Below are positions 1,644 through 22,731 of a DNA stretch of 64,000 nucleotides, piece after piece. The stretch is taken from NCBI GenBank assembly GCA_963377175.1, contig CAUJNA010003295.1:191501-255500 (forward strand). The letters run 5' to 3'. The stretch comes from Effrenium voratum. Lineage: Eukaryota > Sar > Dinophyceae > Suessiales > Symbiodiniaceae. Every line of letters starts with the position of its first letter. Position 1 is the stretch's first letter. The notes below the pieces were generated by a model, which made no database searches, was not told where the DNA came from, and worked only from the letters and a program-made list of their open reading frames with translations. Made by a program: the position numbers and the translations under genes.

Positions 1644-2110
1644 AGTTAGAGCAAGCCTCTCCCGTCCAGATGGGGGCATCCTGGCCCTATACCCCCCCCT
1701 ACACTTTTGAGCACTTTTTAAACACACATACCAAATCACCCCATTTTCAACCTCCAAATTGAAACACCTACTAAGTTAATCATGAGAAAAATCAGTATTC
1801 TCATCATCAACTTCATTTTTCGCATAATTTGTCCAACCTTTAACCCAACCCTTACACTCATTCAAAACAACAATCCTAACTACATACTAATTCACACCTC
1901 CTCAAAAATGTCACTCAAAAAAATCAATCCACATACTAACAAATGTTCACCCTCAACTTCCAACCATCAAAATTTCATTTTTCCACTTCATGATCCAAAC
2001 TGCAACCCTTAACCAAAACGAATAAATTCAAACTGTCTAATAAACACTGGCATTTTTCAATCAATTCTCGCCCTCAAGTTGGTTAACCATTAGAAAAATG
2101 AAATATTCTA
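1644..2110. repeat. Left terminal inverted repeat of the PLV
   Basis: Matches the reverse complement of 22266-22731 almost base for base. I see about three substitutions (near 1746 and near 2046-2050) before the match loosens after the GGTTAACCA at 2081-2089. The outer end begins AGTTAGAGCAAG. A 76-codon open frame (1782-2012) lies within it and is duplicated in the other repeat, but because the DNA itself is near-identical this gives no evidence of coding. A related GGTTAACCAATGGAAAA copy recurs at about 2477-2493. Confidence 0.92.
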
Positions 2111-2124
2111 ATCGTCAACCTAGT

Positions 2125-2394
2125 CTAGTTATTTTCCAGTAGCTTTTCCTTGTGACCTTGCGTCGCCTCATGTTGCTTCATCTTGTATTTGGTAATCTCA
2201 ACTCCACACAGTGGACATTGCACTTTTTCTCTGTTGGCTTCCCTGTAACTCTTGTTATACTCCTTGTTCTTCTCAACTGTCCGTTTGCGGTAGTCGCGTT
2301 TTTGATCAACACAAGCGTCGCATGACTTCAATCCATACACAAATTCTTCCATTCCCTTTTCATTCCTGCATCTCGTGCACATCTTCTTCTCCAT
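2125..2394 (-). CDS. Small double zinc-motif protein
   Basis: An 89-residue protein of unknown function. The N-terminal part has a CxxC (C6, C9) and a second CxxC (SCDAC, about residues 29-32), consistent with a treble-clef or ribbon type metal site. A basic Y/R/K-rich middle follows, then a C-terminal CPLCG...H...H finger (about residues 60-81). The tail finger resembles those closing the two GIY-YIG proteins of the same element (5850-6512, 20124-20873), so it may be a shared DNA-contact module. It starts at an ATG 2392-2394 and ends close to the left inverted repeat. Similar small proteins are common in large DNA viruses of algae, but no role can be assigned. Confidence 0.7.
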   Translation of the reverse strand: MEKKMCTRCRNEKGMEEFVYGLKSCDACVDQKRDYRKRTVEKNKEYNKSYREANREKVQCPLCGVEITKYKMKQHEATQGHKEKLLENN

Positions 2395-2663
2395 GTTTTA
2401 GTAAGTAGTCTTTTCTTTAAATAGGAATGTCCAAGGTTCAGCCGCCAAAACAACCCTATGTTCGCCCCGAAAAAATGGTTAACCAATGGAAAAGGGAGAA
2501 TTAAAACCGTTAACCCAAATCTTGAAAATAATCTGTGTGACATTGGATGGCAAAATGCGGATGGGAAAGGCCTATGTAGGAAAGCACCCCCACGGCTTAT
2601 ACGGGAAAATTACACTATAATTATAACATATAAATGTTTACATGTTATAATTATACTATGGTT
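2395..2663. other. Intergenic segment of the PLV
   Basis: Holds the repeat-related GGTTAACCAATGG stretch near 2477 and the hairpin at 2616-2655. The plus-strand 69-codon frame crossing it shows no recognisable motif and runs into the hairpin. Confidence 0.5.
2616..2655. terminator. Perfect 14-bp hairpin at a gene 3' end
   Basis: TATAATTATAACAT (2616-2629) pairs perfectly with 2642-2655 around a 12-nt loop. It lies 8 bp beyond the 3' end of the leftward gene at 2664-3172. A second, imperfect copy of the same hairpin lies beyond the next gene (3253-3292). A transcript 3'-end signal is the likely role. Confidence 0.55.
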
Positions 2664-3172
2664 TTAATCATCATCATCTCTGTATTCAAGTAATTTAAAT
2701 TCTGGACATTCTACAAATTTAGTGTTATGTGCAAAACACCTTCTACAATATTCATTGTCGTAGATGTATTTAACAACTTTATTAAAGTCTCTGATCATAT
2801 TATTGTAATTAAATTTTGTTCCTTCGAGAACTTGAGTTCTACTTTCAAGTCTTGTTTGTCAGGAAAACTATGACAGCGAGAGAATGAGTAAATATATTCA
2901 TTTATGGCTGTTCCTCTTTCGGGGTTTTTAACTGCCATTTTTCTCCTTCTCGCTGACTTGCAGCCCTCGCATTCTTCATAGTTAAATTTACACATGTTAT
3001 TGATGATATTACTTGACAAGTTTAACTTACTTAACTCAACTTTCTCGTCATTTAACTTACAATAGCAGTCAGCAACACGTTTATCAAATATGTTTAGCAT
3101 GTCATTTGTATAGATCTTATTTAAGAATTCATTCATAATTTCCTCTTGTTCAATCTCAGTAAATACTACCAT
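2664..3172 (-). pseudogene. Cys-rich PLV protein, frameshifted
   Basis: The ATG at 3170-3172 opens a 125-codon frame that stops at 2795. A second minus frame, open from about 2860, continues to a stop at 2664-2666 and carries a CRRC pair and a further Cys (about 2700-2730). Together they would give roughly 168 residues with Cys pairs (CYC, CEGC, CRRC), suggesting a metal-binding protein whose frame is broken near 2850-2860. The first frame alone could still be a real short protein. The hairpin at 2616-2655 follows the end of the second frame, which supports the longer reading. No family recognised. Confidence 0.55.
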
Positions 3173-3252
3173 TCTGATGCTAACATATATAGGTAATATT
3201 TCTTTAAATACATTTTCAGAGAAATTATAATTTATAGAAATACTTTTACCAC

Positions 3253-3292
3253 TATAATTATAACATATAAGATCTTACATGTTGTAAGTATA
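3253..3292. terminator. Hairpin at a gene 3' end, diverged copy
   Basis: TATAATTATAACAT (3253-3266) pairs with 3279-3292 with two mismatches, and the loop itself contains the palindrome TAAGATCTTA. It lies just beyond the 3' end of the leftward gene 3299-3544, like the hairpin at 2616-2655. Confidence 0.5.
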
Positions 3293-3298
3293 GCAAAA

Positions 3299-3544
3299 CT
3301 ATGGTATTAAAGGCTTTAATCTATGTATTTCCATGGGTTGTATTCGTTTCTTCTGTTCCTTCCTTAACTCTTTTGTTGCTTTTACTTTGTCTCTGCATTC
3401 CTTACATGATTTGTAAAATATCTCTTCCATTTTAATTCTATCATACATTTTGTGAAAATCCTTTCTTGGCTTTGCTTCGTCGCGTTTACTGCAATGATAA
3501 ACCATTGTGCATCCTGTTTCTTCTTCGTCACCTGTAGAACTCAT
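3299..3544 (-). CDS. Small Cys-containing basic protein
   Basis: An 81-residue protein with a Cys-poor acidic start, then CSKRDE...F..........C..C (about residues 18 and 47-50) followed by a long K/R-rich helix-like tail. The spacing resembles the N-terminal zinc module of the protein at 2125-2394, in which one Cys pair is followed by F and a second Cys pair. It probably binds metal and nucleic acid; the function is unknown. It is the second gene of the leftward run and is followed by its own hairpin. The start ATG (3542-3544) is preceded by AT-only sequence, as for most genes of this element. Confidence 0.6.
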   Translation of the reverse strand: MSSTGDEEETGCTMVYHCSKRDEAKPRKDFHKMYDRIKMEEIFYKSCKECRDKVKATKELRKEQKKRIQPMEIHRLKPLIP

Positions 3545-3600
3545 AATATTAGTTATGCCAATATGTCTTTAAACGGATTTTCAAAGAAAAATGTTTTCAA

Positions 3601-3873: not shown

Positions 3874-3935
3874 GTAAATATATATATATATATTATAAAA
3901 TAAAACTTTTAAAACTAAACTTTTATTTTACAAAA

Positions 3936-4439: not shown

Positions 4440-4469
4440 TATAAATAATAATAGAAATAATTTTAATTA

Positions 4470-4995: not shown

Positions 4996-5047
4996 ATAAA
5001 ATAATAAATATAAAATATTTTCTAAATAACTTTAATATTATTTTATT
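4996..5047. promoter_or_regulatory. Divergent AT-only intergenic region
   Basis: 52 bp of almost pure A/T between the divergent starts at 4995 (minus) and 5048 (plus). It must contain upstream signals for both genes; TAATATTATT lies next to the plus-strand start. No discrete element can be defined by eye. Confidence 0.35.
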
Positions 5048-5809
5048 ATGTCAGATGTTCCAATAATAAAGCCAATAAACATAACTGAATATGAATTCAA
5101 ACAATCTAAATATGAGCACGTGCCAAAATTACCATTTAGAAGTATTATAGTTGCGAGTTCGACAGGCGGTAAGACTGTCCTTATTCAAAATTTAATATTG
5201 AATGTTTATAGAAATTCATTTGCAAGAATATATATATTTTCACCCAGTGTTCATAACGATCCAACCTTTACAGAAGTTAAAAAGTATATTAGGGATGAAC
5301 TACATGTAGATGATGAAAAAGAACAAATTTATTTTGACAATTACAATCCAATTGATATAGAAAATGTAATTGAAAGACAGAAGAAAATGATTAACTATAT
5401 GAAGTCTAAAAAGATAAAGAAACTACATTCAATATTAATCGTGATTGATGATTTCAGCGACGACCCCAAGTTTTTAAGATATTCTAAAATATTACACGGT
5501 TTATTTACAAGAGGTAGGCACGACGCAATCAATGTTATTTGTTCTTTACAAAAATATAAATCAATCGCAAATATAATTCGTGTTAATGCTTCTTCACTAT
5601 ACATTTTCAGACTCAAATACATTACAGAACTAATGAGTTTCATTGAAGAAAACGCAGCGATAGTGGATAAAGACAAACTGTTAGACATGTATCACACGGC
5701 AATAAATAATTCTTCGTATTCTTTCTTTTATGTAAATCTAAATTCTAAAGACATTAACCACATGTTCTACATGAATTTTGAACACCGATTTACGATTACC
5801 GATGAATAA
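5048..5809 (+). CDS. A32-like genome-packaging ATPase
   Basis: A 253-residue P-loop ATPase of the FtsK/HerA-related A32 type, which pumps viral DNA into the preformed capsid in PLVs, polintons, virophages and large DNA viruses. Walker A is ASSTGGKT (residues 36-43), preceded by the PFRSIIV strand; Walker B is IVIDDFSDD (about 131-139) after a hydrophobic strand. The typical R-rich segment LFTRGRHDAINVI follows (about 155-167), then a Q-containing sensor (CSLQ). The length is normal for the family. It forms a two-gene rightward unit with the GIY-YIG gene 40 bp downstream, opposite to the surrounding genes. The start ATG at 5048 follows an AT-only leader. The frame is intact. Confidence 0.9.
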   Translation: MSDVPIIKPINITEYEFKQSKYEHVPKLPFRSIIVASSTGGKTVLIQNLILNVYRNSFARIYIFSPSVHNDPTFTEVKKYIRDELHVDDEKEQIYFDNYNPIDIENVIERQKKMINYMKSKKIKKLHSILIVIDDFSDDPKFLRYSKILHGLFTRGRHDAINVICSLQKYKSIANIIRVNASSLYIFRLKYITELMSFIEENAAIVDKDKLLDMYHTAINNSSYSFFYVNLNSKDINHMFYMNFEHRFTITDE

Positions 5810-5849: not shown

Positions 5850-6512
5850 ATGCCACGTAAGGAACTAAACTACGATAAAACCTATTTTTATAAAATAGTT
5901 TGCAAGGACTTAAATATCAAGGACTGTTATGTTGGACACACATTAAATTTTAAAAACAGAAAGTCAGCACACAAAAGAACTTGTTATAATGAGAATGACA
6001 GAGAACACTCTAATTCTTACGTTTATCAATTTATAAGAAACAGTGGAGGTATTGAAAATTTTGACATGATACTAATACAAACTGAAAGGTGTGAAAATCG
6101 TTTGGACGCGCTAAGGAAAGAACGAGAATATATTGAACAATTGAATGCGACATTGAATAAAACCCGACCAACAAGAACACCAGAAGAAGCAAAGCAATAT
6201 AGGTTTGATTACTATGAAGAGAACAAGGAAGATATAAAGCACAAAAATAAACAGTATCGTGATGACAATGCTGATATTGTTAGAGAACAAACGAGAAAGT
6301 ATAGAAACCAAGCACATGTCAAGGAATATATGAAACAGAAAAACAAGGAATGGCGAGAAAATAATGAACAATATGCAGAAAAACGAAAGGTTAAATATTC
6401 TTGTGATTGTGGAGGTAGTTATACATGTGGTCATAAAATGAGGCATGAAAGAACAAACAAACACCAAGAATATTTGAAATCTTTACAACCAGAAGAAACC
6501 CCAGAACAATAA
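5850..6512 (+). CDS. GIY-YIG endonuclease with C-terminal zinc finger (copy 1)
   Basis: A 220-residue protein. The N-terminal ~100 residues form a GIY-YIG nuclease domain: the first strand YFYKIVC and the CYVGHT strand (about 32-37) replace the name-giving motifs, the catalytic Arg is in FKNRKSAHKR, and a Glu lies in REREYIEQLNATLN. A tract of repeated Y/K/E/N-rich helices follows (about 110-180), then a C-terminal CDCGG...C...H...H finger (about 187-208). A paralogue with the same architecture is at 20124-20873. Such proteins nick DNA and may act in homing, replication or host-genome attack; which applies here is unknown. Its 3' end converges on 6546-6773 across a palindrome. Confidence 0.85.
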   Translation: MPRKELNYDKTYFYKIVCKDLNIKDCYVGHTLNFKNRKSAHKRTCYNENDREHSNSYVYQFIRNSGGIENFDMILIQTERCENRLDALRKEREYIEQLNATLNKTRPTRTPEEAKQYRFDYYEENKEDIKHKNKQYRDDNADIVREQTRKYRNQAHVKEYMKQKNKEWRENNEQYAEKRKVKYSCDCGGSYTCGHKMRHERTNKHQEYLKSLQPEETPEQ

Positions 6513-6784: not shown

Positions 6785-7603
6785 TTATTTAGATTTTAAT
6801 TTTTCAAAATTATATTTTTGTTTTTCTTCTCCGTCTTCTTCTTCTTCGTCTTCAGTTGGTGCTGGTATTTCTGTTGGACTTTCAGATGAAGAACTATGAA
6901 CAGTAATAGGTGGCGAACTATGAACACTAATAGCTTCATTTGATGAATTGCTACTGCTACCTTGTGCATTTCCTGCTGTTATTTGATTAACTAAATCTGC
7001 GATATTTATTGTTGTTGCAATTGCGCTATGTGATAAGTTTAATATTATATCTGCTACTGTAGCGCCGTTGTGTAGCATTATTTCTATCATTTTTGTCAGT
7101 TTGAACTTCTTTTCTTCTTCATCGCTGTCCTCCTCGTCTGGTGGTTTCTTTGGCGGTGGTTCTGGTGGTTTGTTGTTGTCAAGCATTGTAGTAAAGGCTG
7201 ACACCATTGTGTCGCGTTGGTTTTTCAGTGTTTGTGTTGCTTGCGCTCTTGTTGGTTCATGTCTTTTGTATGTGTTGCGCCAAAAGTTTTTAAGCATTAT
7301 TTTAAACATATTATCTTGGTTTTCCTTTACCTTAAACGCTTCAAATGTCATATTTAATTGTTGATTTGCATCATTATATAACTTTTCTTGAGTCTCTCTG
7401 GTTTCTGTGGCGATTGTATCTGTATTGGTTGCAATGTCAATAAATTCTCTCGGTATGCCCTTTTTCATCATTTTCGGTGGTTGTGTTGTTGTTGGTGTGT
7501 TTGGTTTTGTTAGGTTATGTATTGAAAAACTGTCGTCGTGATCATAATTATCATTGAACTTCTGCTTCTTTCTTTTCAGTATATTTTTAGTTAATATTAT
7601 CAT
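6785..7603 (-). CDS. Acidic, low-complexity structural candidate
   Basis: A 272-residue protein. The N-terminus is basic (KNILKRKKQKF), then a Thr/Pro linker, a helical region containing TRETQEKLYNDANQQLNMTFEAFKV (in part, about 66-95), a PPEPPPKKPPDEEDSDEEE linker (about 148-168), a hydrophobic helical patch (about 172-210) and a Ser-rich acidic tail ending EEEEEDGEEKQK. It lies 24 bp from the 336-residue gene and reads in the same direction, as part of the row that includes the capsid gene. It could be a scaffolding or minor virion protein; no homology is recognised. Confidence 0.6.
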   Translation of the reverse strand: MIILTKNILKRKKQKFNDNYDHDDSFSIHNLTKPNTPTTTQPPKMMKKGIPREFIDIATNTDTIATETRETQEKLYNDANQQLNMTFEAFKVKENQDNMFKIMLKNFWRNTYKRHEPTRAQATQTLKNQRDTMVSAFTTMLDNNKPPEPPPKKPPDEEDSDEEEKKFKLTKMIEIMLHNGATVADIILNLSHSAIATTINIADLVNQITAGNAQGSSSNSSNEAISVHSSPPITVHSSSSESPTEIPAPTEDEEEEDGEEKQKYNFEKLKSK

Positions 7604-7626: not shown

Positions 7627-8637
7627 TTATTTCTTACCTTTACCCTTAAAACTTGCCTTGAGTTCTTCTATTCTACCTCTGCTTAAATTTGCTATCCAAC
7701 CGCCGTTATCAATAGTGTCTAAAGCCATATCCACTAAATATTCTTTGTATGTTCTCGCCTTGCCTCTTCCTTTTTGTTTCAATTCTTCTTGTATTTCGCT
7801 TTCTTCTGGCACTTGAATTCCTCTTAAATAAAACTGAAATTTAATATCATTTACTGTTAAATTAGGGTTGTCTTTCCAGTAAGCGGGACTAATAGTATTA
7901 TCTATTGTTGTTTTAAACAATGGCGTCATTGGCAATGGTGGTGGTTGTTGGGTTGTTGCACTTGATGCTCCTGTTGCTTGTTGAACTGGTGTCGCGTCAA
8001 AATTGTCATCTACTGCTTGAGGTGATTGTTCAACATCTTCTACGCGCATTGTTTGCTGGTCGTCTGCTACTGCTTCACCTGCTGGGGCTTGTCGTGGTTC
8101 TGTTGGTGCTGATTGTTTGTTTGTCACCATTCTATGAAATAGTGTCCCGCCCATCTCTCTTAAATTTGACGCCATCGCTCTGCCTACTTCTTCCGCTTTC
8201 CGCTTTGTTGCAGTTGCTATATCTTGTAATTGTGTATCTACCATTGCCTCGTGTTGTCTTGTCGTTTGTTGTGGTGTTGAAAAGTCATATTCGTCTGCTA
8301 TTGCTTGGTCGTTTGTATGCTGTGGTGTATCTGCATCCATCTTATGAACTGCATATGTGTGTCCGTTTCTGTGTGCTTCCCGTCTCATCATTATCTCTCT
8401 CATTTGCCTGTCTAATATTCTCATTTGTTGGTCTTTCAATAATTCTAAATGGTCGCTTCCATCAAAAAAACTACCCTGAGGACTTGCTTTAAAAAAGGTA
8501 GCATCTCGGTTAGGTAGTTTTCCCGTTATTAAATCATTTTCGCCTATTAAATTAGCGATTTCTTCATAGGTAGGTCGTCGTTTCAATCCAAATTTTGCAT
8601 ATGGATTTATTAATTCTAAACTTGCTGTAGTTGCCAT
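7627..8637 (-). CDS. Probable PLV virion-associated protein
   Basis: A 336-residue protein. Residues 1-90 contain an ordered segment with NPYAKFGLKRRPTYEEI and repeated RQMREIMMRRE-type basic helix (about 70-90). The middle (about 100-250) is Q/T/A/P-rich and disordered. The C-terminus is again ordered: TYKEYLVDMALDTI...WIANLSRGRIEELKASFKGKGKK, with a basic end. The N-terminal motif has the look of conserved PLV proteins located next to capsid genes, but I cannot name a family. Placement two genes downstream of the major capsid gene in the same direction suggests an internal or minor virion role. Confidence 0.6.
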   Translation of the reverse strand: MATTASLELINPYAKFGLKRRPTYEEIANLIGENDLITGKLPNRDATFFKASPQGSFFDGSDHLELLKDQQMRILDRQMREIMMRREAHRNGHTYAVHKMDADTPQHTNDQAIADEYDFSTPQQTTRQHEAMVDTQLQDIATATKRKAEEVGRAMASNLREMGGTLFHRMVTNKQSAPTEPRQAPAGEAVADDQQTMRVEDVEQSPQAVDDNFDATPVQQATGASSATTQQPPPLPMTPLFKTTIDNTISPAYWKDNPNLTVNDIKFQFYLRGIQVPEESEIQEELKQKGRGKARTYKEYLVDMALDTIDNGGWIANLSRGRIEELKASFKGKGKK

Positions 8638-8759: not shown

Positions 8760-9110
8760 TTAAGTAAATATTAACTTTTTTGTATCTTCATACCATTTAT
8801 TTAAATGTTCTTTTGTTGCATGTGGTAAGTTAGGACGATATAATTCGCCCATCATTCTATCCAGCTCATTTACATAGTTTGCTCTCTTATTTCCTTCGTC
8901 AATCTTTTTCCTTAATGCTACCGATGCTTCTTGTGAGTTTCTTAACTTCATTTGTTCGTGTAGGTGTTTTAGATATTCTGTATCTTTTAGATCAAATGGA
9001 CTATATTTAATTTGTGAGGATTGTAAAAATACTTTACCTTTATTTTTTAAATTATTTCGTTTATGAAATTTATACATTATATATTTATCATAGATTTTAA
9101 TTTTAATCAT
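8760..9110 (-). CDS. Small basic protein overlapping the capsid gene
   Basis: About 117 residues from the ATG at 9108-9110; the longer frame beginning at 9125 would need a GTG. The start overlaps the capsid gene's stop (ATGATTAA arrangement), indicating translational or at least transcriptional coupling. The N-terminus is very basic (IKIKIYDKYIMYKFHKRNNLKNKGK); the rest is charged and helical with repeated L/M positions (YLKHLHEQMKLR, VNELDRMMGEL). Immediate coupling to the major capsid gene makes a virion or scaffold role likely. No named family recognised. Confidence 0.6.
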   Translation of the reverse strand: MIKIKIYDKYIMYKFHKRNNLKNKGKVFLQSSQIKYSPFDLKDTEYLKHLHEQMKLRNSQEASVALRKKIDEGNKRANYVNELDRMMGELYRPNLPHATKEHLNKWYEDTKKLIFT

Positions 9111-10686
9111 AGAGCACAGATCCACTTTCCCTCAATTCCAGAACAGACTCCGAAATCATATGTACAAATAATTCTCGCACATCTTCATCGGTTGTGAATG
9201 ACTTGTTTGACCCTTTCAATTTAAAAACGAGTAAGCCGCCCATTTTCGTATTCTGGCCTGTAAAATTAGTGTCTGCCATTTTCTCGAACGAAATCCCAAT
9301 AACAAATTTATCTTCTCTGTAGCGTTTGTAGGAAATGCTAAATGCATCTTGATCAGGGTTCAAATAGTGTAATGTTCGTTTTAAATAATATGCAGTTTCT
9401 GCCATTGATTGAGATTCAAACTCTGGATATTTCTTATTATTAATTTGTAATTGCCAAGTCAAATCTAATTCAGAATTTTGAAAACCTTTACCTTGGAAAC
9501 GCTCACGATCAGCGCCATCTGGATCAGGACCGTCAAAGATTCTTGAATTAATCATAGGATTGTAAAAGTAATTCCATCGCTTGTAAATATAATTATCGTG
9601 TCTGTAGTAAATATTATTATCAGCATCTACACCTGCTCTTGGTGGGCGATAGAGAGTAATAAAACAACCATTTAATTTAGAAGCGGATTTAACAATGTTC
9701 ATATTAATTTCAGTTCCTGCCGCGTTGAATGATTGTGTCATAGTGTGATACATTGGAAATACTAATTTCAAACTTTGACCCTCTAACAAATGTTTTACTA
9801 TATTATTGTTGACCGTGTTGTCCAATTGTATTACCTCAGCTCGTATGATTACATTATTTAATTCCCACAAGGTGCTGGTATCTCCAGTTGTGAAATAATA
9901 ACCTTTGGCATCATTTTGAGTATTGACATCAGTAACGGTAAAGGGTGCAATAACTGGCGCATGTTCGTCTGATACAATTGTAAATTCCAATTCAAGGGGA
10001 GCATAACGAAGAGGTAAATAATAATTGCTTTCTAACAGTCCGCATACCGGTTTATGTCCTAATCGCATATAACCATTAGCGCCGGGAATTCCTGCTACCG
10101 AATGGCGAGTATATCGCGATGTTAAGTCTCCCCAATTGTTATGGTCTTTTGTAGTTGAAATTGTAACTGCCGCAGGGCCGGCGGTGGGATTGGTTCGTGT
10201 ATTGACATCAATAAATTCTGCCAATCCAGTAGCATATGTGTGTCGCCAGTCATCATCCCAACGAGGATTAGCGCCACTTTCTAAATCGTCCATATCTCTG
10301 GCATCTTGACTTTTAAAGGAATTATACAATTCGCAATGTCTATTGTATTCAATAATATCTTGAACTTGCTGACCTCCAACAGTGCATCTATAACGACTGA
10401 AGAAGGATGACAAATTACCTAACGGGCGTAAAAAATGGCTTCGTGTTCCGTCGGTGTTTTGAAGATTGGCAAACAAACGAATAGAAGATAAATCAATATA
10501 TGTGTTGTCTTCACCTGATATGTGAAATCTAATTTGTTTATTACCTGCTTTCGGGTTATAAACATTACTACCCGATGGAAAATAATTAACGTGTCGTCGG
10601 CCTGTGATATATTGTGCTGTTTCTGGAAGTCCAAAATTTAGCGAGTTAATCATTGTAGTTTCTGATTCGGCGATTATATTATCCAT
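9103..10686 (-). CDS. MCP: Major capsid protein (PLV double-jelly-roll type)
   Basis: A 527-residue protein, within the size range of PLV/virophage-type capsid proteins, which form pseudo-hexameric trimers of two jelly rolls. Characteristic N-terminal features are visible: ITGRRHVNYFPSGSNVY (about 26-42), then IRFHISGEDNTYIDLSSIRLFANL, PLGNLSSFFSRYRCTVGGQ and VQDIIEYNRHCELYNSF (to about 127). These match the pattern of PLV capsid N-terminal strands as I know them. A second beta-rich half follows, with aromatic YYLPLRYAPLELEFTI (in part). The frame is intact. It is first in a leftward unit; 8760-9110 overlaps its end. A search against PLV capsid profiles would settle the subgroup. Confidence 0.9.
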   Translation of the reverse strand: MDNIIAESETTMINSLNFGLPETAQYITGRRHVNYFPSGSNVYNPKAGNKQIRFHISGEDNTYIDLSSIRLFANLQNTDGTRSHFLRPLGNLSSFFSRYRCTVGGQQVQDIIEYNRHCELYNSFKSQDARDMDDLESGANPRWDDDWRHTYATGLAEFIDVNTRTNPTAGPAAVTISTTKDHNNWGDLTSRYTRHSVAGIPGANGYMRLGHKPVCGLLESNYYLPLRYAPLELEFTIVSDEHAPVIAPFTVTDVNTQNDAKGYYFTTGDTSTLWELNNVIIRAEVIQLDNTVNNNIVKHLLEGQSLKLVFPMYHTMTQSFNAAGTEINMNIVKSASKLNGCFITLYRPPRAGVDADNNIYYRHDNYIYKRWNYFYNPMINSRIFDGPDPDGADRERFQGKGFQNSELDLTWQLQINNKKYPEFESQSMAETAYYLKRTLHYLNPDQDAFSISYKRYREDKFVIGISFEKMADTNFTGQNTKMGGLLVFKLKGSNKSFTTDEDVRELFVHMISESVLELRESGSVLYD

Positions 10687-10943: not shown

Positions 10944-11387
10944 TTATTGAGATAATGTTAGTTCATTTACACGCTTTATACAATCTTCTAATTCGTCTCT
11001 ATACTTATACAAATAACTTAAATCATCTTCATCTAATGGAATTTTCTTTTCTTCTTGTTCTTTTAAAAAGTCGGTATAATCAACTCTACTATAATCTGTA
11101 TAATGTATTTTGTTATTTTCTGGATGTAATTTTAAGTAATCATTTTCATAATTAATAATTTCACTATACATGCCTATTATAAGTCCTTCAATATTACCTT
11201 TTCTGTAGTATAAATGATTTAAATCATTGCTTTCGTGCTCTTCCTTATCTTTATTTAACACTTCCTTGCCACAATGACATTCGTATTTACTATTTGATAT
11301 TTTGTATTCTTTCTCTTTCTCTCGCTCTATCAATCTTTCATAAGCATATTCAATATCATTGTCCCATTTCTCAGCATCAATACTCAT
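10944..11387 (-). CDS. Acidic protein with a CHC...H...H finger
   Basis: A 147-residue, strongly charged protein. Residues about 35-57 read ECHCGKEVLNKDKEEHESNDL followed by H, giving C-x-C-x(12)-H-x(6)-H spacing that resembles the closing fingers of the element's two GIY-YIG proteins. The remainder is Y/E/D-rich and helical. The N-terminus (SIDAEKWDNDIEYAYERLIEREKEKEY in part) suggests a short coiled coil. It sits in the capsid-lipase row. It probably binds nucleic acid or a partner protein; the function is unknown. Confidence 0.6.
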   Translation of the reverse strand: MSIDAEKWDNDIEYAYERLIEREKEKEYKISNSKYECHCGKEVLNKDKEEHESNDLNHLYYRKGNIEGLIIGMYSEIINYENDYLKLHPENNKIHYTDYSRVDYTDFLKEQEEKKIPLDEDDLSYLYKYRDELEDCIKRVNELTLSQ

Positions 11388-11418: not shown

Positions 11419-12201
11419 TTATTGTTCTGGTGTTGAATTAGGATTAAACCCGTTTGAAACTGCCGTAGTAGGATTAATTTCAGTCATACCTTGTCCTGTC
11501 CAATTATTGAAACTGTGTTTATCTAATAAGTTGTTGCTTTCTATTTCTCCAGTTATTGCTGCGTCATCAAACATTGCTATAGGATCTCCGCGATTTCTAA
11601 ATCGTAAGTATCGCGGGTTTTTCTGTTGATTACTTCCTGATACAAAAGGTGATGAATAAACAGTAGTAGCATATTTGTTTCCGTGTCTATTGTTAATTTC
11701 TTGAACAACGGATGAGCCGAGGGAATGGCCGACCAGTCTATTAACATCTGGATTTTTACTTAATTCTTCCATTGTGTCTTTATATCTTTCGCTTAATTGA
11801 ATATTATGAGTAGGAATAAAAAACAAATCTGCAATGACATCATTGACTTTGTGGCCTAGTCCTGTTTTAGCACCAGTGCCACCAATATATAATGTGTTAC
11901 CTATTCTTGTTATTCCATTCACATTTGAATACGCGGCGTCTAAACCCTTGACATCATCAATTTTATTTTTATTTTGAACATTGATTTCTTCGGCGTAGCG
12001 TGTTTTATGTTTCATTATTTGCTTATCAAAATGTTTATTGAAACCTCCTATTTTGTCTTCCAATTTCTTTTTATGGTTAAAAAATACATCTTCTATTAAA
12101 TCCTTACCTGCAGTATAAGCTTTATCACTTGCTATGCCTGCCATCATTTGCGTAGGCGATCTGCCTTCAATAGCACCTAATAATAATTGTCTTCCTATCA
12201 T
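11419..12201 (-). CDS. Alpha/beta-hydrolase (class 3-like lipase)
   Basis: A 260-residue protein with the nucleophile elbow GHSLGS (Ser160). Candidate triad partners are visible: Asp206 in RNRGDPIAMFDD and His229 in LDKHSFNNW. The N-terminal ~85 residues are helical and charged and start with MIGRQLLLGAIEGRSP, possibly a membrane-seeking segment. The catalytic order Ser-Asp-His and the spacing fit class 3 lipases. In a virion gene row the likely job is breaching a host membrane during entry or release, as proposed for lipase-like genes of related viruses; this is inference. It diverges from the penton gene across a 42-bp AT-only region. The frame is intact. Confidence 0.8.
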   Translation of the reverse strand: MIGRQLLLGAIEGRSPTQMMAGIASDKAYTAGKDLIEDVFFNHKKKLEDKIGGFNKHFDKQIMKHKTRYAEEINVQNKNKIDDVKGLDAAYSNVNGITRIGNTLYIGGTGAKTGLGHKVNDVIADLFFIPTHNIQLSERYKDTMEELSKNPDVNRLVGHSLGSSVVQEINNRHGNKYATTVYSSPFVSGSNQQKNPRYLRFRNRGDPIAMFDDAAITGEIESNNLLDKHSFNNWTGQGMTEINPTTAVSNGFNPNSTPEQ

Positions 12202-12243: not shown

Positions 12244-13097
12244 ATGAGTGATAGGTTAACATATAAAAAAATCTATGTTGATAGTGCCTACAGATTGCAA
12301 GAAAGTAATTCTACCAGCGATTTTATTATAGAACTTGACCAAAACTTTGAAATTCCACCAAGAACAAAAATGTTCGTGACAGAGTGTTCATTCAGCACTC
12401 CGTTTTATACAACAGAGAAAGGGTTTTACGAACGCTTCTATATTATGTTGTATAATAGTTCCAATGTCTTATTAAGAAGCACTGCCGTTGATGTATCCGG
12501 TGAAATTTATTATGCCAATCAATTATCATTTAAAATACAATCAGAATTAAACACGGCATTTAATGATATTGTGCCTGACTTATTCTTAACAGTATATGGA
12601 CAAAGCGAGAGAAAGATGGAGCTTAAATTAAATGACCCTCTAACTTACAAAATCAAAATACCTACAGATGAAGAATTAGAAACTTATGTAAATGGCGAAT
12701 GGAACAGAGGACAGTTTGAATATGACAATTTAAGACCAAAATCTATTAATTATTTATTAAGTAATTATATTGCCTATGATCCTGCGTCATCTTGGTTAAG
12801 TGGATACTTAATTTAGTTCCTTTTCAGAATGTATATATTAACTCACCTCAACTAAGCGACTACAAATATTCAGCACCTAATAATTTTAGTAGTTCAGTAA
12901 TTAAAAAAGTTCAAATTAATCAACAACTTGGTGGTGTTATTAGCGACTACACCTCACCTATATATGCAGATTTTATTGATGTAGGCGGTACAAATATTAA
13001 GAGACTACACTTTAAAATTACAACCTCAAGAAACGAAGTTATTGATTTTCACGGCGTACCCATACAGTTCTCACTTTTGTTTCAGTTAGATAATTGA
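12244..13097 (+). pseudogene. Penton/minor capsid protein, frameshifted
   Basis: The ATG at 12244 (MSDRLTYKKIYVDSAYR) opens a frame ending at the TAG at 12814-12816; the next frame, open from 12792 but only from a TTG, carries the rest (LVPFQNVYINSPQL ... IDFHGVPIQFSLLFQ) to 13097. The C-terminal pattern (YI.SP.L, D..DVGG, LHF.., DFHG.P..FSLLF) is that of PLV/polinton penton single-jelly-roll proteins, and the N-terminal part fits their first strands, so a single ~284-residue protein is broken by a 1-nt-type change near 12800-12815. It may be a real lesion or an assembly indel. It lies next to the lipase and upstream of the zinc-finger and fibre genes. Confidence 0.8.
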
Positions 13098-13178: not shown

Positions 13179-13739
13179 ATGTCAGAAGTTGAACCTGAAA
13201 TTACTAATACAATTGAAGCAGACGCACCAGTAAATTAATTACCACCAATTGAAGAAGAAGAAGCACCAAAGGCAGAACCAATAATAGAACCAACACAAGA
13301 AATAAAACATGTAGAACCTCTTAAAAACAACTCAAAAACTCAAGCACGTAATGAAAAGAAAATAACATGTCCAAAATGTGCCAAAACTTTAACATTAAAA
13401 TCATACAGATACAGTCATGAACGCAATTGCCAGGGACCATTAGAAACTAAACCAATTAAATCAATCAAACCGAAAGCAGTTCCAATAGCAAAACCCCAAA
13501 AGGTAGAATACAACGAAGTAGCGTACAACGAAGAAAATCAACAACCACAACCGCAACAAAACAATATAATAGCGAACACCCCGCCCCCAAGAAGATCGCA
13601 ACCACAACCGCCTCCAAACCCGCTACACAATATAGCACAGCATTACCAATTATTGCAAAATGAATATTTGAGACAGAAGCAAGAAAAATATAATGCATTA
13701 AATAAAGGTATATTTGGTTCAAGAGGAAAGAAAAGATAA
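13179..13739 (+). pseudogene. Zinc-finger protein with in-frame nonsense codon
   Basis: An ATG at 13179 opens a frame that meets TAA at 13236-13238 after 19 codons, then stays open for 166 more codons to the TAA at 13737-13739. No ATG lies between the nonsense codon and the finger. The product would be ~186 residues: an acidic E/P/A-rich start on both sides of the stop, a CPKC-x12-H-x3-C finger (about residues 67-86), a P/Q/N-rich linker and a basic C-terminus ending RGKKR. The same composition on both sides of the stop shows it is one gene interrupted. It lies between penton and fibre, so a virion or regulatory role is possible. No named family. Confidence 0.65.
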
Positions 13740-16404: not shown

Positions 16405-18481
16405 ATGTCATTGTCAAAAACTATAAGAAATAACATCAGGTCATTAAATTCAAGAATTGATAGGTTGGCAGGCGATACCAGGGAAAAAGCCACCGAATTG
16501 AGAGATCTATATGAACAGCGAAAAGTTGCACAGTTTAGCACCGCATCAACTATTATTGATGGGTTTATCAATGCCACCACCCCAATGGGACAAAAGATAC
16601 GACGATGTGATCCAAAACAACCGTATAAATCTACCGTTGAATGTTAGGATGGAACAAAGCACTGTAACTAACATTGTAAAGCAGTCTAAGGCGAACGATG
16701 AGTCATGGACATTAGACGTCATGCTTTACCGCGAAGGTGTTAGGGAAGGTGACAACAAAAAGCCGGCTTTCACATACAAAACAGAATACGGAGAACTCAA
16801 ATATTACCCCATAACAAAGGACGGTAAGGAGAGAACATACACCGTTAACGCCAGCACAAATATAGACGAGTATGTAGGCAAACGAATTGTAAAAACCAAG
16901 GATTATGATCTATTCAGAAAGTTCATTGTAACACTTGCCCAAGATCCAGAATTTGAAACAATGCTAAATATTATGGGTGGGTATGTTGGCGTTGATCAGA
17001 AAAAAACAATCGAGATCAACAAGAAGAAGAGGTTAACCAAGAAGACTAACGCTGTGGCTTACAACGTAGAGACGGGGTATATTGACGCCTTGAAGATCTT
17101 GAGAGCCAGAAAGGTGGAAGGTGGACAGCCTAGTAATCCACGACAAGCCAACCTGAGAAGATCGGAAAACATCAGTATGTATAATACTTACATGTATACC
17201 GAATTGGATACATCGAAAGAAACATTTATGGAAGCAATCCAGAAAGGTAATTATGTAGACAATCAATGTTGGTTGAATACACTCACTGATTATTATAAAG
17301 ATACCCTAATGAACAACAAGAAGAAAGAACCAATGTCGCGAGGGATGATACTAAAACTAATAAATAAAACAGAACAGGAATTCACAGAGTCGGGGGCGTC
17401 AATTGATGACATGATCCCGGTATTTATAAAATACAGAATGCGTGTGAGAATAATAGACCAACTGGGCAAAATCATTTATTCTTATTCACCAGAGATGTTT
17501 GACCGCAACATCAGAGCCTTTTATGCAATGGTCAAAAATAATCATATCTACACACTGAATAATAATATTAAAAGATTGGAACAAAAACAAAATACTGATG
17601 ATGCATTTGTAGCAAGGGCACGACCCGACTATCATATAAGTGATAGAGAGAAGCCATCGATTTGCAAAATGTTTTCTACTATTGATGACATTTTTGAAAT
17701 GGTTAAGGCAACAATTGCGAACAGAACCGACAAACAGGAAAAGAACTTTTTAGATTTAGTTCATAGAGAGAATGATCTAAATAAATTATTTTGCGATTTC
17801 AAAAATATCGGGTATGAATGCAGGATTGTTCACAAAGCAGGGACTATTTCAGAATTGAGGGCGGACTTCAATAATGTATATTTAAATATTAGGTCACAGT
17901 GTCTGATAGACGACCAGATCAATAGTGACATCACAGTAGACAGAGAAACGGTTTACAACAATATGACTGAAGCGATGTTTACATTCAAAAAGAAATTATT
18001 CAATCCAAATCACAAGTCTTATTATAGTCCTACCCATATACAAGTTTTAAATAATTATAGAACCATCGTCCCACAAGGCGAGCTATTCAAGGGCTTGGAT
18101 AAATTGGATGCTCCAAAACAGGAGATCGACATGAACAAAGCGTTTACAGATGCATTTAATACGATTACCAGAATAGGAGTTTTTAATCAGTTTGACAATT
18201 GGAAAGCTTATAATAGTAAATGTAAGATCAAGGATGTAAATATATATTTGGTAAAAGCAGAACTGACACATCGCAATCTGTTTTTTAATAATGATACTAA
18301 TATAGTTTATGGTATGTTTCTTAAGCATTTTATGCCACTTGTTGCATCTGGCGAGTTGTCCATTACTCACTGCAAACAGCCCCATTTCATCCACAAGGTA
18401 GATAATAAAATGTTGGTTGAGGAACTCTGGGGAAAGCGAATAAGCGAAAATATTGAAGAAGACAAGGCAATTAAAAAATAA
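16405..18481 (+). pseudogene. PolB-like N-terminal part of polymerase-helicase, frame-broken
   Basis: The first ATG after the AT leader (16405) opens an 80-codon helical frame; a second frame from 16511 stays open to 18481. An indel near 16560-16590 would join them, though a separate small overlapping gene cannot be excluded. The long frame holds a Cys/His region (DNQCWLNTL at about 250-258, NNHIYTLN at about 343-350, numbering from 16511) reminiscent of OTU-like domains found with viral PolB, then a PolB-like palm start. Its end (EEDKAIKK, then stop) runs into the +1 frame, which continues with IANSIFGLLEKS, a motif-B-like sequence. Known PLVs, Tlr1 and transpovirons carry an SF1 helicase fused to an inactivated PolB; this gene fits that fusion. 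Confidence 0.7.
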
Positions 18482-20094
18482 TAGCCAACTCGATTTTTGG
18501 CTTGTTGGAAAAAAGTAAGAACAGCAGTCAGAGATCATTCGTTTTTAATGATCTCAATGAGGCGATCAGCCTTCAGGCAGATGCAGGGGGGAAGTTAAAC
18601 ATGATGAGCAGGAATACTGCCAAGTGGGTTGAAGAGTTTGATGATAATGGCATGTGGTGCCGTGATAGAGAAGTATCTGAACAAAACGACAATTTATATT
18701 ATATTCTGAATGTGGTTGATAGGTGCGAGTTGTCCAATGGGTTTCGTTTTATTAAAGAAATGCTATTGCAGTATCATAATTTCAAAATGCAATGTGCATA
18801 TCAAAAATTGACAGAGAACAATGTTAAGGTATTGAGTGTCAAATGCGACGCTTTTGTCGTGGACTGTTCGGGTTTTAATAAGTTTGGTTTGAGAACGACT
18901 CAGCAGTTGCTAGATTTTCACGATGGGATCGGTGGGTGGAAATTAGCCAAGACTCACGATGAGATCCATCATACAGGAAAGCAGTTGTATGAACAGAAGA
19001 AGTGTGAATATGTTGATATTGCGATTGTCAAACGTAAGACTTTACAGGTTGAAAACGAATGGGACCAAGAGGAATTAGTGAACATTGTCCAAGAGCATAA
19101 CCCAATCATGGTGAGAGCTGTATTTCCGGGCGGGGGGAAATCTACTATAGGGCGGTGCATGGAAACACTGAAGGGTAAACGAGTGTTGTTTGTCGTGCCA
19201 ACTAATTGTTTACTCCAAGAATGCGATGGTGAAGCTGTCACAGTCAATAAGTTTTTTGCCATCAGTGTTGGTGATGAGAAGATGGAAAAGTATGATCATT
19301 CTCCTTTTGATGTAATAGTGTTTGATGAGATCTTTTGTAATGATACTTATGTATTGTCAAGAATTCAGAAATTTACAGAAGATCATAAAGATAGTAAAAT
19401 TATCATCGGTGCCGGAGATACGGACCAGTTGCCAAGTATTACACCAATCACTAACACACAAAATTATAAAACATATTTGGATCAATGTATAGATAATATA
19501 TTTGGCTACAACATTTGGCTTTTTGAATGCAAGCGATTGAAGAATAAAGCCGACCGAGACAAACTCAAATGTATCAAGGAAGATATTTTTGCAAATAAAC
19601 TTCCATTCGTAGATATTATTCTTAAATATTTCAGATTTACAGATAAAGTTGAACTGTGTGAAAACAACATAGCATATACGAATGAAACTTGCAAGAAGGT
19701 ATCAAATGCGATTAGACAAATGAAAGGAATTGACGAAGAATATGTTATAGGCGATAAACTCATTTGTAGAAAGTATATGAGAACAAATCACACGACGTTT
19801 CACGTCAATATCAAATATGAAATTACAGGATTTGATGGTAACATTGTAACTCTTCAGAATGTGAAGACGAAAGAAGAACAAACGACTATGATATGGCACT
19901 TGCGATCTAATTTTATTTATGCTTATGCTTACACGTGTCATAGCAAACAGGGATGCAGTATTGATGACGATGTCGTGATATATGATTGGAATAAAAACTA
20001 CTGTGAGAGGGAGTGGTATTTTACTTGTATCACCAGAGCTAGAGATCTGAATCAAGTAATGTTTTACAAGTATGGTGATGACATACAGGTTTAA
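18476..20094 (+). CDS. Inactivated PolB C-part fused to SF1 helicase
   Basis: This frame has no ATG at its beginning (only a TTG at 18502) and directly continues the upstream PolB-like frame, so it is the second part of one gene. Residues (from 18502) ~75-145 form the end of a PolB-like palm; where active enzymes have the DTD of motif C it reads LSVKCDAFVVD, so catalytic Asp residues appear lost. From ~200 an SF1 helicase follows: Walker A AVFPGGGKST (206-215), Walker B VIVFDEIF (271-278), motif III GAGDTDQLPSI (303-313), and the UvrD-C-like AYTCHSKQG ... FTCITRARD (about 477-517). It should unwind DNA in element replication. An active polymerase must then come from elsewhere. Confidence 0.85.
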
Positions 20095-20102
20095 AGAATA
20101 GA

Positions 20103-20114
20103 TATCTTAAGATA
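20103..20114. terminator. 12-bp perfect palindrome after the helicase gene
   Basis: TATCTTAAGATA lies 9 bp past the helicase stop and 9 bp ahead of the next ATG. It is consistent with the 3'-end palindromes elsewhere in the element, but short. Confidence 0.35.
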
Positions 20115-20123
20115 AATAAGGAT

Positions 20124-20873
20124 ATGAATAAATATCAGAACGGAAAGATTTACAAAATCGTTGATGTATGCTATAGTAAAGCCTACATTGGTAGCACTTG
20201 CGAAGAGTTGAGTCAAAGGATGGCAAGACACCGATACATGTATAACCAACACATCAGTAGAGGCAAGGAAAGCTACAGAAGCGCTAACAGACTCTTTGAT
20301 GAGTTTGGTGTAGACAATTGCAAGATTGAACTTGTTGAAGAATATCCGTGCGCTAACCAGATGGAGTTACACAGAAGAGAGGGCTATCATATACAAAACA
20401 ACGACTGCGTTAACAAAATTGTAGCTGGAAGAAGTGACAAAGAATATCGCGATCAAAACGCCGACAGGGAAAAAGAAAGGCATAAAGACTATTACATGAA
20501 GAACCTAGACAAAATCAAAGCATACAGAGAAAGCAGAAAAGAGGAACACAGCGCCTACAACAAAGCATATAGAGAAGAAAACAAAGATAGGATCAACCAG
20601 CAACGCAAAGAATACAGACAGAACAACAAGGATACGATATCTGAAAGGAACAAACATTTTTATCAAAATAATCTAACAACATACAGAGAAAAGCGTAAGG
20701 AATATTATGAGAGGCAGAAAGAGAAACTGTTAGCTAAGACCGAGTGCCCTTGTGGTGGCACTTATGGACACAACACACGCGCGGCGCATTTTAAGACACA
20801 GATTCACCAGACCTACTTAGCAAAACAGCGAGAACAACCAGAGCAAGAACCACAAGTAGAACAAGAAAATTAA
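20124..20873 (+). CDS. GIY-YIG endonuclease with C-terminal zinc finger (copy 2)
   Basis: A 249-residue protein with the same plan as 5850-6512. GKIYKIVDV and KAYIGSTC (about 27-34) give the GIY-YIG strands, the Arg in LSQRMARHR and the Glu in HRREGYHIQ fit catalytic positions, and VNKIVAGR closes the domain near residue 95. A long run of Y/R/K/E/N-rich repeat helices follows (about 100-200), then CPCGG...H...H (about 212-230) and a Q/E/P-rich tail. It sits between helicase and integrase with short gaps (29 and 18 bp), so it is probably co-transcribed with replication genes. Having two diverged copies in one element suggests different targets. The frame is intact. Confidence 0.85.
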   Translation: MNKYQNGKIYKIVDVCYSKAYIGSTCEELSQRMARHRYMYNQHISRGKESYRSANRLFDEFGVDNCKIELVEEYPCANQMELHRREGYHIQNNDCVNKIVAGRSDKEYRDQNADREKERHKDYYMKNLDKIKAYRESRKEEHSAYNKAYREENKDRINQQRKEYRQNNKDTISERNKHFYQNNLTTYREKRKEYYERQKEKLLAKTECPCGGTYGHNTRAAHFKTQIHQTYLAKQREQPEQEPQVEQEN

Positions 20874-20891
20874 AATATCTTCTTTATTATA

Positions 20892-21812
20892 ATGAGTAGT
20901 TCTAACAAAGATGATATAATTTCCAATGTGTATTACGATCGTGCGGGGTTTGGTTCTTTAAAAACAACTCTAGTAGACAGTAAGAAAAAGGATCCTTCCA
21001 TCACAATGCAAGATGTTAAGGAGTGGTTTGAAGAGAATGTGCAAAGGAAAAAACAACTATCCGGATACAACTCATTCATCGCTCCACATGTTCTGTATGA
21101 ATTTCAGCTTGATTTGTTCTTTATTTCAAAAAATGATTTACAAACTCAAAAATTTAGTATAGGTTTAGTTCTTATTGATGTTTTCTCCCGTAAAGCCGCG
21201 GTGATGCCTATCATGTCAAAGCAACCTGCCGACATCACTGCTGGGATAATGGAAGGTTTGAACAAACTCGGGAAGCCCCACCTCATTTACTCTGATGACG
21301 AAGGGAGTCTTAACAATCAGGATCTTGTTGACTTTTTCAAGGATCAACAAATAGAGAATTACAAAACAAGAGGGCACCCTCATTTTGTTGAGCGCTTCAT
21401 CCGCACGTTCAAGGACATGCTTTTCAAGAGGGTTGATGCAGACGAGAAAAAGGGAAAGGTTAATATACAATGGGTTGATTATATCCCCGAGATCATGCTG
21501 ACATACAACAGTAAAATGGTTCATTCTGCCCACGATATGACTCCAAACGATGCCCACAAAAAGGGAAACCATCTTGAGGTCAAGATGAAGCTTGAGATGA
21601 ACAGAATCAAAACCCGTAAATATCCCCCTGTTAGGGTTGGCGATGAGGTCAAAATATACCGCAAAAAAGGGATCAGTGAGAAGGAGAGAACGAGTTCGTG
21701 GTCAGCAAACAAGTTTACAGTCGAAAGAATTGAGCGAAAATTAGGACAAGACTATTATTATGTCCAAGGTGTGACTCGCGCTTATTTGAGATCGGAAATT
21801 CTGAAGGTTTGA
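20892..21812 (+). CDS. Retroviral-type DDE integrase (rve)
   Basis: A 306-residue integrase of the polinton/Maverick type, which joins element ends to host DNA and makes 5-6 bp duplications. The core shows Asp74 in FQLDLFF, Asp135 (or 136) in IYSDDEG and Glu167 in HPHFVERFIRTFK, about 31 residues between the last two. The C-terminal region (about 245-306) reads VRVGDEVKIYRKKG...WSANKFTVERIE...YYVQG, an SH3/chromo-like DNA or chromatin reader. No N-terminal HHCC zinc motif is evident. Position next to the right terminal repeat fits polinton layouts. The frame is intact. GC content is higher than in the AT-rich left half. Confidence 0.9.
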   Translation: MSSSNKDDIISNVYYDRAGFGSLKTTLVDSKKKDPSITMQDVKEWFEENVQRKKQLSGYNSFIAPHVLYEFQLDLFFISKNDLQTQKFSIGLVLIDVFSRKAAVMPIMSKQPADITAGIMEGLNKLGKPHLIYSDDEGSLNNQDLVDFFKDQQIENYKTRGHPHFVERFIRTFKDMLFKRVDADEKKGKVNIQWVDYIPEIMLTYNSKMVHSAHDMTPNDAHKKGNHLEVKMKLEMNRIKTRKYPPVRVGDEVKIYRKKGISEKERTSSWSANKFTVERIERKLGQDYYYVQGVTRAYLRSEILKV

Positions 21813-21820
21813 ACATCTAG

Positions 21821-22198
21821 GGCAGTTGCTTTGGAAGTCTCGGGCAGTTGCTGTGGAAGGTTAGGGCAGTTGCTGTGGAAGGTTAGGGCAGTTGCTTCGG
21901 AAGTCTCGGGCAGTTGCTGTGGAAGGTTAGGGCCGTTGCTGTGGAAGGTTAGGGCAGTTGCTGTGGAAGGTTAGGGCAGTTGCTTTGGAAGTCTCGGGCA
22001 GTTGCTGTGGAAGGTTAGGGCAGTTGCTGTGGAAGGTTAGGGCAGTTGCTGTGGAAGGTTAGGGCAGTTGCTGTGGAAGGTTAGGGCAGTTGCTGTGGAA
22101 GGTTAGGGCAGTTGCTTTGGAAGTCTCGGGCAGTTGCTGTGGAAGGTTAGGGCCGTTGCTGTGGAAGGTTAGGGCAGTTGCTGTGGAAGGCAGTTGCT
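21821..22198. repeat. 22-bp minisatellite next to the right terminal repeat
   Basis: About 17 tandem 22-bp units starting 9 bp after the integrase stop. Two unit types alternate irregularly: a major one with core GCAGTTGCTGTGGAAGG followed by TTAG, and a minor one with GCAGTTGCTTTGGAAGT followed by CTCG. It is GC-richer than the surrounding element. No open frame of interest crosses it. Confidence 0.9.
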
Positions 22199-22265
22199 CA
22201 AGCTAGGCTTCTGAAAGCCTACAGGTATTTTGTTCCAGGATAATGACGTAATTTGAGTTAGCCCT
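22199..22265. other. Short unique spacer before the right TIR
   Basis: About 67 bp with a small AGGCTTCTGAAAGCCT hairpin near 22204-22220. Nothing else is seen in it. Confidence 0.4.
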
Positions 22266-22731
22266 TAGAATATTCCTTTTTCCATTGGTTAACCAACTTG
22301 AGGGCGAGAATTGATTGAAAAATGCTATTGTTTATTAGACAGTTTGAATTTATTCGTTTTGGTTAAGGGTTGCAGTTTGGATCATGAAGTGGAAAAATGA
22401 AATTTTGATGGTTGGAAGTTGAGGGTGAACATTTGTTAGTATGTGGATTGATTTTTTTGAGTGACATTTTTGAGGAGGTGTGAATTAGTATGTAGTTAGG
22501 ATTGTTGTTTTGAATGAGTGTAAGGGTTGGGTTAAAGGTTGGACAAATTATGCGAAAAATGAAGTTGATGATGAGAATACTGATTTTTCTCATGATTAAC
22601 TTAGTAGGTGTTTCAATTTGGAGGTTGAACATGGGGTGATTTGGTATGTGTGTTTAAAAAGTGCTCAAAAGTGTAGGGGGGGGTATAGGGCCAGGATGCC
22701 CCCATCTGGACGGGAGAGGCTTGCTCTAACT
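22266..22731. repeat. Right terminal inverted repeat of the PLV
   Basis: Reverse complement of 1644-2110 with about three substitutions in the outer ~450 bp. The outer end is CTTGCTCTAACT. The duplicated open frame here (22363-22632, minus) is longer than its left counterpart only because of an upstream ATG. Confidence 0.92.

Follow-up and report, generated by a model that had tools for sequence, protein, structure and literature searches.

The stretch of the Effrenium voratum genome analysed here (hereafter the window: 64,000 nucleotides, contig C3113, CAUJNA010003295.1, positions 191501-255500) contains a block of 21,088 bp, running from one terminal inverted repeat (TIR) to the other (1644-22731), which we regard as an endogenous dinoflagellate polinton-like virus (PLV) belonging to a family with numerous members in this genome. 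The probability of this reading is put at about 0.92. The block falls within the 15-40 kb, with TIRs, that is expected of a PLV, and an earlier sequence-only reading, which had proposed an integrated PLV, is borne out by the TIRs, the target-site duplication (TSD), the predicted capsid and penton folds, the ATPase and the replicase. The ends and the genes on which the argument depends are as follows (window position, strand, feature).

1639-1643, no strand: left copy of the 5-bp TSD, CCCCT; C-rich surroundings make a chance match likelier
1644-2102, plus: left TIR, 459 nt, 99% alike, six mismatches against the right arm
5048-5809, plus: A32-type packaging ATPase, open; Pfam Pox_A32, E 1.9e-10, above cut-off
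5850-6512, plus: GIY-YIG endonuclease 1 (GIY1), open; Pfam E 1.5e-6; C-terminal Cys/His cluster by eye
9103-10686, minus: major capsid protein, predicted double-jelly-roll (Foldseek on a low-confidence model), open; 353 homologues
11419-12201, minus: lipase-like protein, open; GHSLG at residue 158; copies in its own genome and in Skav-named gene models
12244-13097, plus: penton (minor capsid) gene, split into two frames that overlap, 12244-12816 and 12780-13097; fold predicted from its relative P0148
13775-15901, plus: fibre with C-terminal S74 chaperone domain, open; Pfam Peptidase_S74, E 7.9e-10
16411-20094, plus: putative Tlr1-type replicase (N-terminal region, vOTU, protein-primed PolB palm, SF1 helicase), in three frames
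20124-20873, plus: GIY-YIG endonuclease 2 (GIY2), open; PHROG homing endonuclease, E 1.2e-4; C-terminal Cys/His cluster by eye
20892-21812, plus: rve-type integrase, open; Pfam rve, E 0.015, below cut-off; 5-bp TSDs
22273-22731, minus: right TIR, 459 nt
22732-22736, no strand: right copy of the 5-bp TSD, CCCCT

The GC content is 33.2% inside the block, compared with 58.3% at 1-1643 and 52.3% at 28-64 kb. The 459-nt arms differ at six positions, five of them at 2047-2099, within the inner 56 nt, which confirms the AT-rich block with matched TIRs noticed earlier. A GC step as sharp as this could also be produced by misassembly, with a contaminating viral contig joined to host sequence. This explanation is highly improbable, as a 5-bp TSD flanks the window's element and a perfect one was found in 25 of the 27 end pairs measured, 13 of these 25 sites lying more than 50 bp from any G/C run of 8; moreover, a TIR-end pattern gave 124 matches on many contigs of the assembly (reversed control 0), and a capsid motif gave 536. 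Given the 5-bp duplications of the other copies, the CCCCT of the window is read as an insertion mark and not as an assembler join. The 27 pairs comprise 20 newly fetched of the 26 TIR pairs described below and seven earlier ones (the window, C668, C3434, C1157, C852, C3379 and C511), four of which are also among the 26; C505 and C1291 are not in the 27, and C3658 and C2056 (left end cut), C2335 (one end masked) and C2291 were not counted.

The host assembly (1.156 Gb, 3699 contigs) contains 30 matches to the DVNP family (PF19060) above the cut-off, compared with none in 14 control genomes, and 251 exact matches to the 21-nt spliced leader of dinoflagellates (reversed control 0), a dense cluster of them lying on contig C722. 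Both markers support a dinoflagellate host, in agreement with the dinoflagellate-type genome suggested earlier. The 536 capsid matches were obtained with a 24-nt motif back-translated from YNRHCELY (reversed control 0); if each lay in a full 21-kb element, the elements would make up about 1% of the genome, which is an upper assumption. Among the 100 TIR-end places listed, at least 26 plus/minus pairs lie 19.6-22.1 kb apart.

Several arrangements were observed among these copies. Contigs C3658 and C2056 share the same flanks and TIR ends, being either duplicate contigs or a segmental duplication, so that some copies may be double-counted. At C2291, the outer flanks beside the TIRs are near-identical inverted copies. 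Opposite TIR ends lie only 2.5 kb apart at C310:226376-228928, possibly a short deleted derivative; three capsid motifs on C309 (233662, 237309, 240942) are spaced by 3.6 kb, as if a capsid segment had been tandemly duplicated; and on C3488 a lipase-capsid pair recurs with the same scores after 27.5 kb (316693-319347 and 344233-346887), perhaps a duplicated provirus.

The capsid ORF (open reading frame) has 353 homologues. Among the 120 matches listed, five carry names with the prefix Skav, which we take to denote Symbiodinium/Fugacium kawagutii, and are 63-71% identical. No meaningful match was found in Pfam (two of 20 members touch CCL2-like, best E 0.059), and none among PDB sequences. An AF2 model of the protein is poor (predicted local distance difference test, pLDDT, 48.2), and it gave 79 Foldseek matches in the PDB at E <= 0.001 (best E 1.1e-8; template modelling score by query 0.18-0.27); the 50 matches listed are, by title, PBCV-1, iridovirus, Sputnik, PRD1/PR772 and vaccinia D13, that is, the double-jelly-roll lineage. 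The model thus predicts a capsid of this lineage. The penton ORF had no useful match in the PDB by sequence. Its complete relatives are mostly 281-296 aa long, and one of them, P0148 (pLDDT 71.7; modelled with 19 others), had the mavirus penton as its top Foldseek match (E 1.5e-9), followed mainly by adenovirus penton bases. A penton (minor capsid) protein is therefore predicted, its gene being broken in the window copy.

The rest of the gene list proposed from the letters is upheld in part. The ATPase, the S74 fibre and GIY1 are recognized by Pfam. GIY2, which has no Pfam match, is recognized by PHROG and resembles GIY1 and relatives by sequence. The lipase (Hydrolase_4, E 0.011) and the integrase have matches below the threshold only. 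Both Skav-named gene models compared combine the capsid with a relative of the lipase-like protein (38% identity, E 3e-49, in P0026; 36%, E 6e-45, in P0067), in which the GxSxG motif is not fully conserved (GHSLS, SHSLA). Polintons/Mavericks in the strict sense are marked by an rve-type integrase with a short TSD, a protein-primed PolB with an exonuclease domain and a capsid maturation protease; no such protease was found among the Pfam matches of 19 ORFs, which a diverged one could escape.

The best 82 of 4060 first-look capsid candidates are all at least 92% identical, and four of them have an internal stop; the best 147 of 2283 lipase candidates are all at least 93% identical, three having a stop. 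Both are sets of best-scoring candidates and not random samples. For 41 capsid copies, made up of the window's own and 40 from the remaining 81 scored (820 pairs; one of the 41 has a stop), the median synonymous divergence (dS) is 0.32 and the median ratio of nonsynonymous to synonymous divergence (dN/dS) is 0.11 (5-95%: 0.077-0.158). The low ratio indicates that the capsid has been under selection in the lineages producing the insertions.

Ten 10-kb stretches around other copies (L069-L078) were compared with the window in 400-bp bins, and their gene order is that of the window as far as each reaches. The elements might instead be a capsid-bearing Maverick transposon that now spreads only within the genome, making no virions. 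The many copies in one genome, the broken genes of the window copy and the lack of relatives in scans of viral contigs would all suit such a transposon. Against it stand a dN/dS of about 0.11 in comparisons of the capsid copies, penton frames 290-291 aa long in four of the ten stretches (L069, L070, L076 and L078), and a fibre sequence that is recognizable in all six stretches reaching it (L069, L070, L071, L073, L074 and L078); we consider the transposon explanation unlikely. The PLV reading is preferred. Such a virus may infect dinoflagellates, as proposed, but neither capsid nor penton relatives appeared in three pattern-based scans of viral contigs (of limited reach), nor capsid relatives in phage records. 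A virophage-like lifestyle, with dependence on a giant virus and protection of the host population, is suggested by analogy only, as PLV dependence on giant viruses is discussed in PMC13037468 and PMC12220804; we regard it as rather doubtful.

A number of observations weigh against an inserted virus. The CCCCT duplication of the window sits in a C-rich stretch and could match by chance; several other TSDs are also of low complexity within G/C runs, which raises the odds of a chance match. One of the 25 duplications is GAGGG, a low-complexity sequence that PMC12220804 dismisses as a spurious TSD in its clusters C5 and C6, which seldom carry rve integrases. Two measured pairs lack a perfect duplication (C511, four of five bases; C3024, none), and outside the 27, the ends on C2291 (L027/L028, 130083-139179) lie 9 kb apart with no duplication. 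The rve match of the integrase (E 0.015) is below the Pfam cut-off, and its second D-to-E spacing, read by eye, is about 30, shorter than the 35 canonical for rve integrases. The capsid fold relies on a low-confidence model (pLDDT 48). The capsid copies were chosen by protein similarity, which favours low dN; in our judgement such a choice alone cannot give dS 0.3 with dN 0.03. Five capsid pairs with dS < 0.02 have a dN/dS of 0.29, as expected if some changes post-date insertion. Finally, no virion, transcript or free relative was seen (viral-contig and phage-record scans).

The following course of events would account for the element. Its genome would be linear, with TIRs, and replicated by protein priming, judging from the replicase type. 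It would be packaged by the ATPase and may enter cells with the aid of the lipase; lipases have been reported in PLVs, and lipase-aided entry has been proposed (PMC4642659). Insertion, presumably by the element's own rve-type integrase despite its weak match, leaves the 5-bp duplication. Selection maintained a working capsid in the lineages from which the copies arose, presumably as packaged virions. Individual genes would decay after insertion, as the breaks in the window copy illustrate, and the free-standing GIY-YIG genes would move among intergenic sites, probably by homing.

The replicase is filed as Tlr1-like pPolB-S1H, an assignment suggested by its domain order. The Tlr1-like replicase of many PLVs combines a TP-like domain, a vOTU, a palm without exonuclease and an SF1 helicase (PMC11071308). 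Relatives align over the Cys253 block, the His345 block and the palm region, and Cys253 and His345 are near-invariant columns (at least 90%) in a 23-sequence alignment; by analogy with PMC11071308, they probably form the vOTU pair. Pfam gave no polymerase or exonuclease match for the window ORFs, the palm motifs being read by eye, and the replicase profile had no useful match in the PDB. The relative P0125 is 96% identical over the first 208 residues and continues in one open frame from the palm to the SF1 helicase (AAA_30, E 1.3e-5, just below the cut-off). The fusion of PolB with an SF1 helicase proposed from the sequence thus holds in P0125 and not in the window, where the coding sequence occupies three open frames.

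These frames are 16411-16557 (frame 1), about 16592-18478 (frame 2) and 18475-20088 (frame 1); the evidence for the first break consists of weak matches at the N-terminus (E 7.7e-5 to 0.002). P0125 is intact across one of the replicase breaks, and the palm/helicase junction is also open in the relatives P0134 and P0135. A programmed frameshift at this junction was set aside as unproven, since these three relatives are open there and the window has further breaks. The penton is encoded in two frames, 12244-12810 and then 12801-13094, the ORF at 12244-12816 covering its first two thirds; P0148 has an intact penton, and the penton frame is shorter or cut in L072, L073, L074, L075 and L077, with no such frame in L071. 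In addition, the zinc-finger-like ORF beginning near 13179 is probably broken by an in-frame stop at 13236-13238. The window copy therefore has three coding breaks and probably a fourth, its capsid, ATPase, lipase, fibre, both GIY-YIG ORFs and integrase being open. Breaks occur in other copies as well: the capsid frame is 302 aa in L075 and the lipase frame 119 aa in L072. The description of the block as a full provirus applies to its ends, which are complete; as a provirus it is partly decayed.

The copies have exchanged segments, as is seen from blocks of differing identity to the window. L071 and L073 are 97-100% identical over 13.6-18.8 kb (fibre, polymerase), 51-65% over 19.2-20.8 kb (helicase, GIY2) and 71-92% thereafter. 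L069, L070, L072 and L077 drop to 66-67% at the end of the ATPase and return to 93-98% from the 6.4-kb bin. The replicase of L074 is only 33% identical over residues 27-396, yet its capsid is 95% identical, and L076 is 92-99% identical throughout.

The GIY-YIG genes come and go at a few intergenic sites. First, GIY1 follows the ATPase in three of 16 copies (the window, L076 and L100). Second, a GIY-YIG gene lies between the capsid and the lipase in L077, where other copies have a 147-aa ORF or nothing. Third, one lies between the penton and the zinc-finger gene in L069, L070, L071 and L076, and is absent there in the window, L072, L073, L074 and L078. Finally, a GIY-YIG gene follows the helicase in the window and L071. 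Such variable occupancy of fixed sites is what free-standing homing endonucleases would be expected to produce; PLVs are known to carry them (PMC12220804). The N-terminus of the ATPase is 93-100% identical among the copies compared, except for residues 91-110 of L069 (75%), L070 and L100 being partly covered; identity at the C-terminus is 97.6-100% where GIY1 is present (two other copies) and 71-84% where it is absent (13 copies). The ATPase 3' allele of the window (from about 5400) accordingly occurs in three of three copies with GIY1 and in none of 13 without. The GIY1-bearing copies (the window, C3063 and C1394) are also the closest by capsid, with dS of 0.018 and 0.049 from the window. Co-conversion of the ATPase end by GIY1 was set aside as unproven, as the three copies are such close capsid relatives that the shared allele may reflect a single event.

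The insertions were shown to lie often in or beside G/C runs, when compared with a small background sample. A G or C run of at least 8 occurs within about 10 bp of 11 of the 25 sites (flanks joined), versus 0.22% for 5000 points of background; at 50 bp the figures are 12 of the 25 and 1.34%. In an earlier, partly overlapping set, a run was present at 8 of 29 ends or pairs versus 1.9%. The background comprises about 35.6 kb of the host part of the window and three DVNP loci, and it may not represent the genome; with the window's 40-46 kb kept in, the 50-bp test gives 13 of 27 versus 3.5% of background. Such a background leaves room for a bias due to survival, sampling or assembly, with insertions elsewhere purged or runs being common where insertions persist. 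The excess close to the site, within both 10 and 50 bp, argues against this explanation, to which we give a minor share of the probability. Slightly short of even odds is our estimate for the proposal that the integrase targets G/C homopolymer tracts and that free-standing GIY-YIG genes carry neighbouring gene ends, homing helping to build the mosaic population. As to chromosomal context, Mavericks have been reported to be enriched at dinoTAD edges in Breviolum minutum (PMC11071213).

Several related systems have been described. The Dino group of PLV capsids (Bellas et al., 2023; PMC10120064) resembles the present elements in host group, low GC, TIRs and size; the likeness is one of description and, indirectly, of Skav-named homologues. 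In the same paper, 2,535 capsid genes are reported for Polarella glacialis, compared with hundreds of capsid-motif matches here, and many of the elements are without a detectable polymerase, in contrast to the readable Tlr1-type replicase found here. The representative dinoflagellate polinton of Haro et al. (2025; PMC12721341), from Symbiodinium kawagutii (VSDK01003953.1, 97,440-118,633), is about 21.2 kb by its coordinates and was compared by description. The dinoflagellate PolB described there (P. glacialis) is unfused, whereas here it is fused to the helicase in relatives. The Oxyrrhis marina PLV of that paper is also a dinoflagellate PLV with a fusion of SF1 helicase and PolB; its helicase is N-terminal, with a tyrosine recombinase and no TSD detected, while here the helicase is C-terminal, with an rve-like integrase and a 5-bp TSD.

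The Tlr1-like pPolB-S1H proteins (PMC11071308) have the same order of vOTU, palm and SF1 helicase, with a GIY-YIG module beside the helicase; here, GIY-YIG is a separate ORF and the replicase gene is broken in the window copy. With the cryptophyte PLVs (PMC12220804), the elements share mass expansion, TSDs with an rve integrase (here weakly matched), free-standing GIY-YIG genes and modular replicases; the TSDs are described there as typically 6 bp for rve and 5-6 bp for PLVs, compared with 5 bp in 25 of 27 pairs here. The suggestion that an S74 fibre, a lipase and two GIY-YIG genes define a new subgroup was rejected, because copies differ in which GIY-YIG genes they carry, a lipase relative is joined to the capsid in the Skav models, lipases of PLVs are already reported (PMC4642659) and dinoflagellate PLVs are already described. 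Dinoflagellate PLVs, PLV lipases, Tlr1-type replicases and PLV homing endonucleases are thus in print; the bias of insertions towards G/C runs was not found there, within a limited literature search.

The remaining features of the block are small ORFs and a repeat.

2125-2394, minus: 89-aa ORF; Cys/His pairs by eye; homologous in L072
3936-4439, minus: 167-aa conserved ORF; matched in four stretches (two partially) at 97-100% amino-acid identity
4470-4829, minus: 119-aa ORF, CpXC-like; Pfam E 0.0018, below cut-off
6785-7603, minus: 272-aa ORF, conserved in other stretches
7627-8637, minus: 336-aa conserved ORF, diverged in L070 and L072
8760-9110, minus: 116-aa ORF, conserved in other stretches
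10944-11387, minus: 147-aa ORF, found in some copies and lacking in others; Cys/His cluster by eye
13179-13739, plus: zinc-finger-like gene; probable in-frame stop at 13236-13238; start the same in the tail of P0149
15993-16280, minus: 95-aa ORF, conserved in other stretches
21820-22200, plus: 22-bp tandem array between integrase and right TIR; 17 matches of the core motif; contains TTAGGG

The motif of the 22-bp array was not found in the ten other stretches, only a few of which reach beyond the integrase. Outside the block, minus-strand ORFs at 61228-63653 resemble a Ty1/copia polyprotein by eye; retrotransposons near PLVs have been reported (PMC12721341). A long simple-repeat stretch at 40683-41679 is open in several frames on both strands. 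A tRNA search led nowhere.

The element retains both ends and its insertion footprint, and sister copies lie in the same dinoflagellate genome, so that comparing them allows integration, recombination and decay to be followed. Since GIY-YIG genes come and go among related copies, one can measure what homing endonucleases do in small DNA viruses. If the preference for G/C tracts is borne by the integrase, insertion sites would be predictable, and the places where such elements settle in dinoflagellate chromosomes could be tested.

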